A stretch of 64,000 nucleotides of DNA, from positions 1 through 64,000 of the forward strand of contig QGNQ01000003.1 in the NCBI GenBank assembly GCA_003228175.2, read 5' to 3'. Origin of the DNA: Chloroflexota bacterium (GTDB lineage: Bacteria; Chloroflexota; Dehalococcoidia; Bin125). This document shows, in pieces, positions 11,601 through 61,633 of this stretch. Made by a program: the position numbers and the translations under genes. Position 1 is the first letter of the stretch; each line of letters begins with the position of its first letter. A model generated the notes under the pieces. It searched no databases. It was given only the letters and a program-made list of their open reading frames with translations, and had not been told where the DNA came from.

Positions 11601-12509
11601 ATGTCGAAGCATCTCGAGGGCAAGGTCGCCCTGGTTACGGGCGGGGCGGGGGGCATGGGCTCGCAGATCTGCAAGGTCTTCGCGGAGCAGGGCGCCCAGG
11701 TGGTGGTCTGCGACATCGAACGCGATGTGGAGGGACGCGCGGACGGCGAGGTCTCGCAGGTGGAGGCGGTGGTAGCGGATATCCGGGCGGCCGGGGGCGA
11801 GGCCGTGGGCCTGGCGGGCGACATCGCCGACATGGATACGGCCGAGCGTGCCGTGCAGACCGCGCTCGACACGTACGGCGACTTGGACATCCTGGTCTGC
11901 GCGCACGGCATCCTGCGCGAGCGCATGATCTTCAACATGTCGGAGGAGAATTGGGACGACCTGGTCCGGATTCACCTGAAGGGCTGTTTCGCGCCGACGA
12001 AGTTCGCCGCGATTCACTGGCGGACGAATCGTGATAAGGGCGGGCGACGGATCATCTACTTCACGTCGTCGGCGGGTGTGACGGGCATCGCGGGCCAGCC
12101 GAATTACTCGGCGGCGCACGCGGGCAAGATCGGGCTGATGCTGTCGAACGCGGAGGCGCTGGAGCGCTACGGCGCGACCAGTAACTGCATCTCGCCGGAA
12201 GCGTCGACGAGGATGACGGACCGTGGGACTGGACTCTCGATGGCCGGCAGCGATGCGGCCCTGGGGACGTCCAGCGACCCCAAGAACGTGACGCCGATCA
12301 TCGTGCTGCTGGCGTCGGACGAGGGGGAAGCGATCAGCGGACGGGTGCTGGGCGCATCGGGTAACAAAATCACCATCTGGGACAACCCGGAATGGGAGAG
12401 CACGATCTTTTCGACGGAGCCGTACTGGAACATCGACGAGCTCTTCGAGGTGATGCCGGCGACGCTGGTGGCACAAGGTGTGGGACCGCCGCCGCGAGTG
12501 CACCCGTAG
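11601..12509 (+). CDS. SDR family oxidoreductase (tandem copy 1)
   Basis: VTGGAGGMGSQI cofactor loop; FTSSAGVTGIAGQPNYSAAHAGKIGLM. Confidence 0.9.
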   Translation: MSKHLEGKVALVTGGAGGMGSQICKVFAEQGAQVVVCDIERDVEGRADGEVSQVEAVVADIRAAGGEAVGLAGDIADMDTAERAVQTALDTYGDLDILVCAHGILRERMIFNMSEENWDDLVRIHLKGCFAPTKFAAIHWRTNRDKGGRRIIYFTSSAGVTGIAGQPNYSAAHAGKIGLMLSNAEALERYGATSNCISPEASTRMTDRGTGLSMAGSDAALGTSSDPKNVTPIIVLLASDEGEAISGRVLGASGNKITIWDNPEWESTIFSTEPYWNIDELFEVMPATLVAQGVGPPPRVHP

Positions 12510-12582: not shown

Positions 12583-13518
12583 ATGGCAACCCATCTGGAT
12601 GGCCGGATCGCGATCGTCACCGGGGGCGCGGGCGGGATCGGCTCGCAGATCGCGAAGGTGTTCGGGGAGCAGGGCGCGCGGGTGGTGGTGGCCGACACCG
12701 GCTTCGATGTGGAGGGGCGCGCGGGGATGGACGCCAGCAAGGTGCAGGCGGTGGTGGACGAGATCGTGGCGGCGGGCGGGGAGGCGGTCCCGTTCGTGGG
12801 TGATGTGGCGGACATGGATACGGCCGAACGCTTGGTCAAGCTGGCGCTGGACACGTACGGCGATCTGGATGTGCTGGTCTGCGCGCACGGGATTCTGCGT
12901 GAGCGGATGATCTTCAACATGACGGAAGATGAGTGGGACGAGCTGATCCGGGTCCATCTCAAGGGCTGCTTCGCGCCGACCAAGTTCGCCTCGATTCACT
13001 GGCGGGCGAACCGCGAGAAGGGCGACCGTCGGATCATTTACTTCACTTCTGATGCGGGCTTGCGCGGGGCGGCCGGGCAGCCCAACTACTCGGCGGCCCA
13101 TGCCGCCAAGCTGGGGCTGATGCGGAGCAACGTGCAGGCGCTCGATCGGTATGGCGTGACGACGAACTGCATCGCGCCGGCGGCCGCGACGCGAATGACC
13201 GACCGGGGCCTGGCCGCGGCGGCCGGCACGGCGGCGACCAGCGATGCCGCTGTGGGGACGGCGCGCGACCCAAAGAATGTGGTGCCGATCGTCGTGTGGC
13301 TGGCGTCGCTGGAGGGCGGACAGGCGAACGGCCGGGTGTTCGGGGCGGAGGGGCATCGGATTTCGCTGTTCCGCGAGCACAACCGGGAACGCTACCTGCA
13401 CTACACGGAGCCGCTGATCGACATCGACGAGTTGTTCGCGCTGTGGCCGAAGACGCTCGCGGTGCGCAGCTTCCCGAACAACCAATACCGGATGGGGGCA
13501 AAGCCGCCGGCGCGGTAA
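12583..13518 (+). CDS. SDR family oxidoreductase (tandem copy 2)
   Basis: VTGGAGGIGSQI; FTSDAGLRGAAGQPNYSAAHAAKLGLM; closely similar to copy 1 throughout. Confidence 0.9.
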   Translation: MATHLDGRIAIVTGGAGGIGSQIAKVFGEQGARVVVADTGFDVEGRAGMDASKVQAVVDEIVAAGGEAVPFVGDVADMDTAERLVKLALDTYGDLDVLVCAHGILRERMIFNMTEDEWDELIRVHLKGCFAPTKFASIHWRANREKGDRRIIYFTSDAGLRGAAGQPNYSAAHAAKLGLMRSNVQALDRYGVTTNCIAPAAATRMTDRGLAAAAGTAATSDAAVGTARDPKNVVPIVVWLASLEGGQANGRVFGAEGHRISLFREHNRERYLHYTEPLIDIDELFALWPKTLAVRSFPNNQYRMGAKPPAR

Positions 13519-57019: not shown

Positions 57020-57709
57020 CTAGGAGTCGCTGCCGTCCGAGGCTGCGCCGTCGGCCGATGCGGCCTCGCCGTCCTCGCCCTCGCCGGGTTCGCCTTCGGC
57101 GCCCTCTTCGTCGTCCGCTGCCTTGACCTCGTCCTCCTCGGGCAATCGGGGCGCAACGATGGTCGCGAGCTGGGCGGTGGGATCGGTGAGGGCGCGAACG
57201 CCCTCCGGAAGGTCCAAGTCCGAGACGTGGATGCTCTGACCGAAGTTCGCCAGGATGGAGACATCGATCGTCAAGTCCGAGGGCATGTCGGCGGGCAGCG
57301 CTTCGAGCATGACGGAGTCGAGTGCGTGGATCAGGACGCCGCCCAGGGCCAGGGCTTCAGCCTGCTCCGCGCCCACGAGGTGCACCGTGGCCGTGGAGTG
57401 AATCAAGCGGGTCATGTCGATGTGGTAGAAATCGACATGCTGGACCTCCCGGCTGACCGGGTGGCGGCGGACGGAGCGCAGGACGATCGGGCGCGTCTCG
57501 GACTCGCCCGCGATCTGCGTGGTGACGACGGCGTTGCGGTCGACGGAGCGGAAAATGCGCCGGAGCTCCACGAGCGGCGCCTGAACGGCAACGGACTCGA
57601 GCCCACGGCCGTAGACGTTGCCCGGCACGATGCCCTCGCGGCGCAGCCGCGCGACCTTCTTGCCGATCAGCGCGCGAGGCTCCAGTTGCAGCGTCAGTTC
57701 GTCGGCCAT
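57020..57709 (-). CDS. rplY: 50S ribosomal protein L25 (general stress protein Ctc)
   Basis: RALIGKKVARLRREGIVPGNVYGRGLES, acidic C-terminal tail. Confidence 0.94.
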   Translation of the reverse strand: MADELTLQLEPRALIGKKVARLRREGIVPGNVYGRGLESVAVQAPLVELRRIFRSVDRNAVVTTQIAGESETRPIVLRSVRRHPVSREVQHVDFYHIDMTRLIHSTATVHLVGAEQAEALALGGVLIHALDSVMLEALPADMPSDLTIDVSILANFGQSIHVSDLDLPEGVRALTDPTAQLATIVAPRLPEEDEVKAADDEEGAEGEPGEGEDGEAASADGAASDGSDS

Positions 57710-57874
57710 GGTCTGTGTCTCCGCGGGGCGTACGCCGCACGCCATGGGGGCGCGGGCCGGTGATGTTCTGGAAAGCCAGGAATCGACCGTACCGGCGGGT
57801 TTCCTTGGGGGTCAAGCGGTCGCATTACCGACGGGGACCAACGAGCGCGGACTGGCGTATGATTCGCGACGATC

Positions 57875-58759
57875 GTGACAGGCGAGGGCATGACACACGC
57901 TGGGCCACCAACGCACGCGCTGACCGCTACGCAGGCCGAGAAGCTGGACACCCTGCGCCGGGTCGTCTCCGGCTATGAGCGGGTGGTGGTAGCGCTGAGC
58001 GGGGGCGTCGACAGTGCGCTGGTGGCGGCCGTGGCGGCGGAGCGACTGGGGGCTGGGGCGCTGGCTGTGACGGCGCAATCGCCGTCGCTACCGGCGGCGG
58101 AGCTCCAGGCGGCGGACGATCTGTCGGCCAGGATTGGGATTCAGCATCGGGTGGTGCGGACGGATGAGATGGCGCGGCCAGCATACGTCGCGAATCAAGG
58201 GGACCGCTGCTACCACTGCAAGACGGAGCTGTATTCGCACCTGACACCGATCGCGGCGGAACTCGGGGCAGTGGTCTGCAACGGCACGAATCTGGACGAC
58301 TTGGGCGACTACCGGCCCGGGCTGCGCGCCGCGCGCGAGCGCGAGATCCGCAGTCCGTTGGTGGAGGCGGGCTGCGGCAAGGCGGACGTACGGGCGCTGG
58401 CCCGCCATCTCGGCCTGCCCGTGTGGGATAAACCCGCCGCCGCCTGTTTGGCCAGCCGCGTGCCGGTGGGGACGCCTGTCTCGGTGCCGGTGCTGGGCGA
58501 GATTGAGGCGGCGGAGGCGTTGCTGCACTCGCTGGGCGTGTCGCACGTGCGCGTACGCCATCACGGTGAGATCGCCCGTATCGAGACGGACGCTGCGGGC
58601 ATCGAAATCGTTGCGCGGGAGCGGGAGACCGTCGAGCGGCGCTTGCGCGCGCTCGGGTTTCGCTTCGTCACGCTGGATTTGGGAGGCTACCGCAGCGGCA
58701 GCCTGAATCCCATCGCGACCCACCCCTCCGGCGCGGCCCAACCAATCGAGGAATCATGA
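57875..58759 (+). CDS. larE: ATP-dependent sacrificial sulfur transferase LarE
   Basis: VVVALSGGVDSALVAAVA PP-loop, GDRCYHCKTELYSHL, NGTNLDDLGDYRPGLRAARE, KPAAACLASRV. Confidence 0.92.
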   Translation: MTGEGMTHAGPPTHALTATQAEKLDTLRRVVSGYERVVVALSGGVDSALVAAVAAERLGAGALAVTAQSPSLPAAELQAADDLSARIGIQHRVVRTDEMARPAYVANQGDRCYHCKTELYSHLTPIAAELGAVVCNGTNLDDLGDYRPGLRAAREREIRSPLVEAGCGKADVRALARHLGLPVWDKPAAACLASRVPVGTPVSVPVLGEIEAAEALLHSLGVSHVRVRHHGEIARIETDAAGIEIVARERETVERRLRALGFRFVTLDLGGYRSGSLNPIATHPSGAAQPIEES

Positions 58760-59100
58760 GTGTGCTCGACCAGTTCCGGCTCGATGGGCAGGTCGCGCTG
58801 ATCACGGGGGGCGGGCGCGGCCTGGGCCAGGCGATCGCCGACGCGTACGCGGCGGTGGGGGCGGAGACGGTGATTGTGGGGCGGACGGAATCGGAGCTGC
58901 GCTCGACCGCCCGCCTGATCGAGCGGCACGGCCATCGCTGCATCCCGATCGTCGCTGACATCACCCGGCCGCAAGAGCCGGCGCAGGTCTTGCAGCCGGC
59001 GCTCGATCGCTGCAACCAAGTCGACATCCTGGTCAACGGCGCGACGTTCACCCTGGACGGTGGCGGCTATCTGCCGCGCGCGCTGGAAGCCGCGCCTTAG
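58756..59100 (+). pseudogene. Internally deleted SDR (N-terminal Rossmann half fused to C-terminal tail)
   Basis: LITGGGRGLGQAIADAY...VDILVNGATFTLDGGGYLPRALEAAP*: only 114 aa; no Ser/Tyr/Lys catalytic segment. Confidence 0.8.
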
Positions 59101-59103
59101 CGC

Positions 59104-61122
59104 ATGGCGAGGCGGCAAACCCGGACGCGTGCGCCGGCCGGGCGACGGCTGCTGGGCGTGGACGTGGGCGGCACGTTCACGGACTTCCTCTACTGGGACG
59201 GTGTGGCGCTACAGCTGCACAAGCGGCTCTCGACGCCGGACGACCCGGGCCGGGCGATCCTGGAGGGGCTGGCGGAGCAGGGTTGGCGGCCGGGCGAGGT
59301 CGTACACGGCTCGACAGTCTCGACGAACAGGCTGCTGACCCGCAGTGGGGCGCGCTGCGCGCTGATCACGACGCGGGGCTTTCGCGACACGTTGCTGATC
59401 GGCCGGCAGGCGCGTCCTGAGCTGTACGCGCTGCATCCGGTGCGTCCTGATCCGCTGATCCCGGACGCGCGGCGGTTCGAGGTGGACGAGCGCGTGGCCG
59501 CCGACGGCAGCGTGCTGCGGGCGCTGGATGAGGCAGAGGTCAGCGCCGCGCTGGATCGGGTTGAGCGCAGCGGCGCAACGGCCCTCGCGATCTGCTTGCT
59601 GTTCTCTTTCGTGAATCCCACGCATGAGCAACGCATCGCGTCGCTGGCGCGCGAGCGCGGACTCGCGGTCTCGGTGTCGCACGAGGTGCTGCCCGAACAC
59701 CGGGAGTACGAGCGGATGAGCACGACCGTCGCGAACGCATACGTCGCGCCAGCGATGACGCGGTATCTGTCGGGGCTGGAAGCGGGCCTGCGCGCGACGG
59801 ACGCCACAACCCGCCTTCGCGTGATGCGCTCGAATGGGGGCAGCATGGGCGCCGCGGAGGCCGGCCGCGACGCGGTGCGCACGGTGCTGTCTGGGCCAGC
59901 GGGCGGAGTCGTGGGGGCGCGGGCGGCCGCGGAAGCATCGGGCATCGGGCAGGTGATCAGCTTCGATATGGGCGGCACGTCGACCGATGTCAGCCTCTGC
60001 CCCGGCCGGCTGTTGGAGCGATCGGACCTGCAGGTCGGTGGCTTGCCGATCCGGACCCCAGCCGTCGACGTGCACACGATGGGCGCGGGCGGTGGATCGA
60101 TCGCAACACTGGACGCGGGCGGCGCCCTGCGGGTCGGCCCCGAGAGCGCCGGCGCCGATCCTGGGCCCGCGGCATACGGTCGCGGCAATGCGCCCACCTT
60201 GACCGACGCCCACGTCGTCCTGGGGCGGTTGCGGCCGGACCGCTTCCTGGGCGGCACGATGCGCTTGGATGTCGACGCTGCCGAGCGGGCGGTAGCAACG
60301 CTGGCCGGGACGTTCCAAGGCTCGCTGCGACGAACCGCGCAGGCGATCATCGAGGTGGGGAACGCGAACATGGCCCGCGCGCTGCGCGTGATCTCGGTGG
60401 AACGCGGCTTCGATCCGGCCGATTTCACGCTGGTTGCCTTCGGCGGCGCGGGGCCCCTGCACGCCTGCGATCTGGCGGTGGAGCTGGGAATCCCAACGGT
60501 GCTCATCCCGGCGACCCCCGGCGTGCTCTCCGCCGCGGGGATGCTGCGCGCACCGGTCGTGAAGGACGCGGAGCAGGGGATGGTGCTGCGCGTGGAGCCC
60601 GACGCGCCGGGCCGCGACGCGACGCTGGAGTCGACGTTCAAGCGGCTGGAGGAGGAGGCGCGGGCGGGGATGCGGCAGGACGGCTACGCGCGCAGCCGCA
60701 TCGAACGGTCCGCCGATCTGCGCTACGCCGGGCAATCCCACGAGCTGACGGTGCCGCTGCGTTCGACATCGCGGGCGGCGATCCGTGGGGCGCTCGCGAA
60801 ATCCCACACGGCGCGCTTTGGCTACGCGTACCCGGATCGACCGCTGGAGGTGGTCGTGGCGCGGGTCAAGGCGATCGCCCCGGGCGCGTCGTATGCCGGA
60901 TCGATCGCGACCGCGTTGCAGGGGGATATCGCAGGGGAGCAGCGCGCAACGGTCGTGTGGGAGCGGCCGCGTCGCACGCAGGTGCTGGATCGGGCCGGTC
61001 TCAAGGGGCCAATCGCCGGGCCGGCGATCCTGACGCAGCTGGATAGCACGATTCTGGTGCCACCCGGCTGGCGGGCGAGGCCGCACGACTCCGGCAATCT
61101 GATCATCCGCCAGGAGGCGTGA
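59104..61122 (+). CDS. hyuA: Hydantoinase/oxoprolinase subunit A family
   Basis: LLGVDVGGTFTDFLYWDG, HGSTVSTNRLLTRSGA, SFDMGGTSTDVSLC, GGAGPLHACDLA. Confidence 0.95.
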   Translation: MARRQTRTRAPAGRRLLGVDVGGTFTDFLYWDGVALQLHKRLSTPDDPGRAILEGLAEQGWRPGEVVHGSTVSTNRLLTRSGARCALITTRGFRDTLLIGRQARPELYALHPVRPDPLIPDARRFEVDERVAADGSVLRALDEAEVSAALDRVERSGATALAICLLFSFVNPTHEQRIASLARERGLAVSVSHEVLPEHREYERMSTTVANAYVAPAMTRYLSGLEAGLRATDATTRLRVMRSNGGSMGAAEAGRDAVRTVLSGPAGGVVGARAAAEASGIGQVISFDMGGTSTDVSLCPGRLLERSDLQVGGLPIRTPAVDVHTMGAGGGSIATLDAGGALRVGPESAGADPGPAAYGRGNAPTLTDAHVVLGRLRPDRFLGGTMRLDVDAAERAVATLAGTFQGSLRRTAQAIIEVGNANMARALRVISVERGFDPADFTLVAFGGAGPLHACDLAVELGIPTVLIPATPGVLSAAGMLRAPVVKDAEQGMVLRVEPDAPGRDATLESTFKRLEEEARAGMRQDGYARSRIERSADLRYAGQSHELTVPLRSTSRAAIRGALAKSHTARFGYAYPDRPLEVVVARVKAIAPGASYAGSIATALQGDIAGEQRATVVWERPRRTQVLDRAGLKGPIAGPAILTQLDSTILVPPGWRARPHDSGNLIIRQEA

Positions 61123-61162: not shown

Positions 61163-61633
61163 ATGACGGCTTTCATCACATTGCAAGGAGCGGAGGCAAC
61201 GCCTGAAGCGGCGGCGGCGGTCGCGCAGCGGCTGACGGGGCCATGTGTCGTGCTGCCGTTCGACGCGTTGCGCCGGGACTGGATCGCGAAGCCCGGCGCC
61301 GACGACGCCACCGTCGCCGCGCAACAATTGAAGCTGCTGGGCGCGGGCTATGTGAAGGCGGGGTACCACGTCGTGGTGCATGGGGAGGCGTTGGCGGAGG
61401 GGCAGGCAGGCAACGACGTGCTGCGGCTGATGCGGATGGTGCCGGGCGTGTACGCGCTGTCGGTCGCGGTTGGCTTGGGAACCGATGGCTTGGGAGCGGA
61501 TGGGTTGGAAGCAGGGCGAGAGGTCGACTTGCGGTTGCCGGCCGGGCAGTCCCTGTCCGAGATCGCGCAGGCGGTCTGGGAGGCCCTGCCGGTCGATGCT
61601 GTTGGGCCCGATCGGCGGGTGTCCGATGCCTAG
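61163..61633 (+). CDS. Hypothetical protein inserted between hyuA and hyuB
   Basis: 156-aa ORF whose stop overlaps the hyuB start; no recognised family. Confidence 0.7.
   Translation: MTAFITLQGAEATPEAAAAVAQRLTGPCVVLPFDALRRDWIAKPGADDATVAAQQLKLLGAGYVKAGYHVVVHGEALAEGQAGNDVLRLMRMVPGVYALSVAVGLGTDGLGADGLEAGREVDLRLPAGQSLSEIAQAVWEALPVDAVGPDRRVSDA

Follow-up and report, generated by a model that had tools for sequence, protein, structure and literature searches.

A 114-aa open reading frame at 58756-59100 of the window (the whole 64,000-nt stretch of DNA analysed), running from ATG to TAG on the forward strand, carries the two ends of a classical SDR joined in frame. It very probably arose when a full-length SDR gene lost its catalytic core through an internal in-frame deletion, since the ends that were kept are homologous to both SDR ends and, in a sister genus, the syntenic SDR reads on beyond the junction. 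The initial annotation had proposed the same event, a normal SDR N-terminus running into an SDR C-terminal tail with the core deleted, and the analysis bears it out.

Anatomy of the shortened SDR frame

Residues 1-94 of the remnant constitute a normal classical-SDR N-terminus, and the SDR C-terminal end GATFTLDGGGYLPRALEAAP follows (59038-59097, forward strand). The N-terminal part (58756-59037, forward strand) is a half-Rossmann (TGGGRGLG ... VDILVN). Remnant residues 12-98 match positions 1-87 of the 195 in Pfam adh_short (PF00106), with nothing beyond (68.5 bits against a cut-off of 26.6; E 6.9e-19). NCBIfam SDR models are covered over only the first ~95 of ~250 positions, with scores far under their cut-offs. 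Like a classical SDR (Pfam adh_short PF00106 / adh_short_C2 PF13561), the remnant has the cofactor-binding motif TGxxxGxG, here TGGGRGLG, the first four strands and the C-terminal end G..[IVLF]..DGG. Unlike a classical SDR, it lacks the NNAG continuation after strand 4, in place of which VNGAT is found at the junction, as well as the catalytic Ser, YxxxK and the region between, and it measures 114 aa against ~260 aa.

The tail was ranked with a profile built from the C-termini of 28 relatives. When all six frames of the window were translated, giving 108,175 stop-free 12-mers, VNGATFTLDGGG was the best SDR C-terminus match, scoring 21.5 bits against 13.7 for the runner-up, and none of 20,000 shuffled tails reached its score. 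TFTLDGGG alone, with the ambiguous first residues dropped, was still ranked first among the window 12-mers. The tail is just ~20 residues long, which would leave some room for an SDR N-terminal fragment having run by chance into unrelated DNA that resembles an SDR end; against the first rank of the tail and the outcome of the shuffling, such a fusion is extremely unlikely. Thus, the tail is taken to be an SDR C-terminal end.

Of nine relatives measured, eight have 145-146 residues separating the positions that are joined in the remnant, so about 435 nt, the Ser/Tyr/Lys core included, are missing from it; the ninth, a more distant paralogue, has 156. The initial annotation was right about the loss of the Ser-Tyr-Lys core, and its estimate of 120-140 residues for the missing part was slightly too small. 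Full-length SDR relatives are 265-273 aa long, as compared to the 114 aa of the remnant. The deleted core was not found elsewhere in the window's genome, where only ordinary paralogues (33-37% identity) were seen. The window also contains two adjacent SDR-like genes, at 11610-11897 and 12592-12879, with open frames of 326 and 354 aa.

From alignment and codon comparison with relatives, the breakpoint falls within about 59032-59043 (forward strand), its exact position being ambiguous within GTCAACGGCGCG. An AAC codon is found on either side of the join in most relatives (left V-N-N-A, right M-N-G), and the left site of the parent could have read VNA or VNG. The shared codons make a short-homology (microhomology) deletion, as suggested in the initial annotation, plausible.

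Content of the rplY-hyuA interval in related genomes

The genome of the window (G000) was compared with one of the same genus (G001), one of a sister genus (G002) and other genomes of the family (remaining G-numbers). In a tree of fmt, rplY, rlmN and hyuA, G000 and G001 grouped with a support of 1.00 and G002 joined next with 0.73 (0.35 with two genes); support for G002 as the sister genus is moderate. The left anchor of the interval is rplY, encoding ribosomal protein bL25 (57020-57745, reverse strand; NCBIfam TIGR00731, 108.8 bits, cut-off 73.1), which holds a conserved position in all relatives examined. The right anchor is an intact gene for a hyuA-like hydantoinase/oxoprolinase subunit (59104-61122, forward strand; PF01968 and PF05378), syntenic with and 79% identical to that of G001.

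Between these anchors (57745-59104; L130, L162-L169), the family genomes inspected have nothing, larE, larE with a nitroreductase-like frame, an SDR, or larE with the SDR remnant. This varying content marks the interval as a dispensable slot. The last arrangement is that of the window. The slot is empty in G004, G005, G007, G010, G012 and G016, with 111-225 nt from the rplY match to the hyuA match. G003 carries larE and the nitroreductase-like frame, the latter judged by eye from its translation and not against a family model. In G001, larE adjoins hyuA directly, and hyuA likely has a GTG start 3 nt past the larE stop; the absence of an SDR between the two genes indicates that it is dispensable in a close relative.

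In G002, an SDR lies directly beside rplY. It is the best match of the remnant by far (55-56% identical, E 4e-30) and reads through the junction (NAAA) into the Ser motif INLTSAGG. Its contig ends at residue 162, so that this syntenic homologue is at least 162 aa long and the evidence for the longer form extends to that point. The alignment to the SDRs of relatives recommended in the initial annotation thus has both ends of the remnant aligning, with the G002 SDR in synteny. After G002, SDR matches in the family, class and phylum genomes are at most 49% identical, and the other close matches, among those listed, all belong to open frames that are 243 aa or longer. A search of the family genomes, 393 class genomes and 400 phylum genomes for a closer full-length parent yielded the contig-end-cut G002 SDR as the only syntenic one, and no second short form was found in any of these genomes; the analysis covered a single genome of the species. 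No locus with LarE beside such an SDR and HyuA was found in a LarE-based scan of genome contigs, and a search of the literature turned up nothing specific.

Probable history of the remnant

Most simply, the SDR was already present before the two genera diverged, was later truncated in the lineage of the window and was lost from G001; the less simple alternative, to which some probability attaches, is that the lineages gained it separately. The ancestor shared by the genus and its sister genus would have had a full-length classical SDR (~259 aa) flanked by rplY and hyuA. A ~435-nt deletion in the window's lineage, probably between short matching stretches coding V/M-N-(N/G), would have taken out the stretch that bears the catalytic Ser, Tyr and Lys without disturbing the frame. 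Bacterial pseudogenes can arise by internal short-homology deletions. The remnant resembles these in that a dispensable gene has a clean internal deletion with a plausible short matching sequence at its ends, and differs from them in that the frame is kept, so that an ORF remains, which annotation may list as a gene.

The initial annotation described a tight operon with a 4-nt larE overlap, and the packing agrees with this on both sides. The ATG at 58756 sits inside the 3′ end of larE (57875-58759, forward strand), with a 4-nt overlap (ATGA), and the TAG is separated by 3 nt from the hyuA ATG at 59104. larE, the remnant and hyuA would be read as one closely packed string, in which an out-of-frame or stop-bearing deletion could lower hyuAB expression. 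The frame was possibly kept because, with such packing, polarity on hyuAB was avoided. Selection on the frame may have acted; by chance alone, one in three deletions retains the frame.

An SDR without its catalytic residues and half the fold is no working SDR, and the remnant cannot work as one because it lacks both. Its product, devoid of the active site and the second Rossmann half, would most likely be a non-enzymatic, unstable peptide. The remnant is probably a dead gene in a dispensable slot, a case of routine gene decay. Its composition is coding-like, with a third-position GC of 0.90 in the N-part, and the frame is free of stops, so there is no sign of further decay. Codon composition did not discriminate between decay and function, and a single-sequence structure prediction of low confidence (pLDDT 61.9, pTM 0.50) was uninformative on function either way.

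The open frame with its native start and stop, the coding-like composition and the tight packing against both neighbours would also suit a short protein whose half-Rossmann is still active somehow, for example in nucleotide binding or as a larE-hyuA translational coupler. Such a function is unlikely when no second short form occurs in any genome searched and the congener G001 manages without it. Retention of the 114-aa half-Rossmann protein as a non-catalytic product, for instance a small peptide that binds a cofactor or acts as a coupler within the larE-hyuAB string, is likewise hardly probable. An assembly or consensus artefact, with ~435 nt of a real full-length SDR dropped by the assembler, could be imagined in a genome fragmented into 76 contigs and 84.7% complete. 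The gene is located mid-contig on a 139 kb contig, and G001 is likewise without a full-length SDR here. Elsewhere in the genome, exact matches to the junction region reach 17 bp at best, below usual assembly k-mers, and no local repeat spans the junction, so a short-read assembler collapse is unlikely; the artefact as a whole is quite improbable.

An internal deletion is the best reading. For annotation, the case is mostly a caution against counting a 114-aa ORF among the dehydrogenases on the strength of a match to SDR models. The finding is ordinary and opens no long-standing question; it illustrates, on a small scale, an operon passenger at different stages (longer, internally deleted, absent) among close relatives.

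Genes flanking the remnant

larE, for an ATP-dependent sacrificial sulfur transferase, is intact in the window (TIGR00268, 315.7 bits, cut-off 150), and the closest named match of its product is in a Chloroflexi MAG (58% identity). The gene was found in only three of 20 family genomes (G000, G001 and G003). LarC (PF01969), the Lar nickel-insertion partner, is present in G001 and G003 and was not found in the 84.7%-complete G000, so the window's larE may be without its partner, or LarC may be absent from the assembly. Between hyuA and hyuB lies an ORF of 156 aa (61163-61633) with no Pfam match; conserved counterparts occupy the equivalent position in G001 (58%) and G003 (41%).
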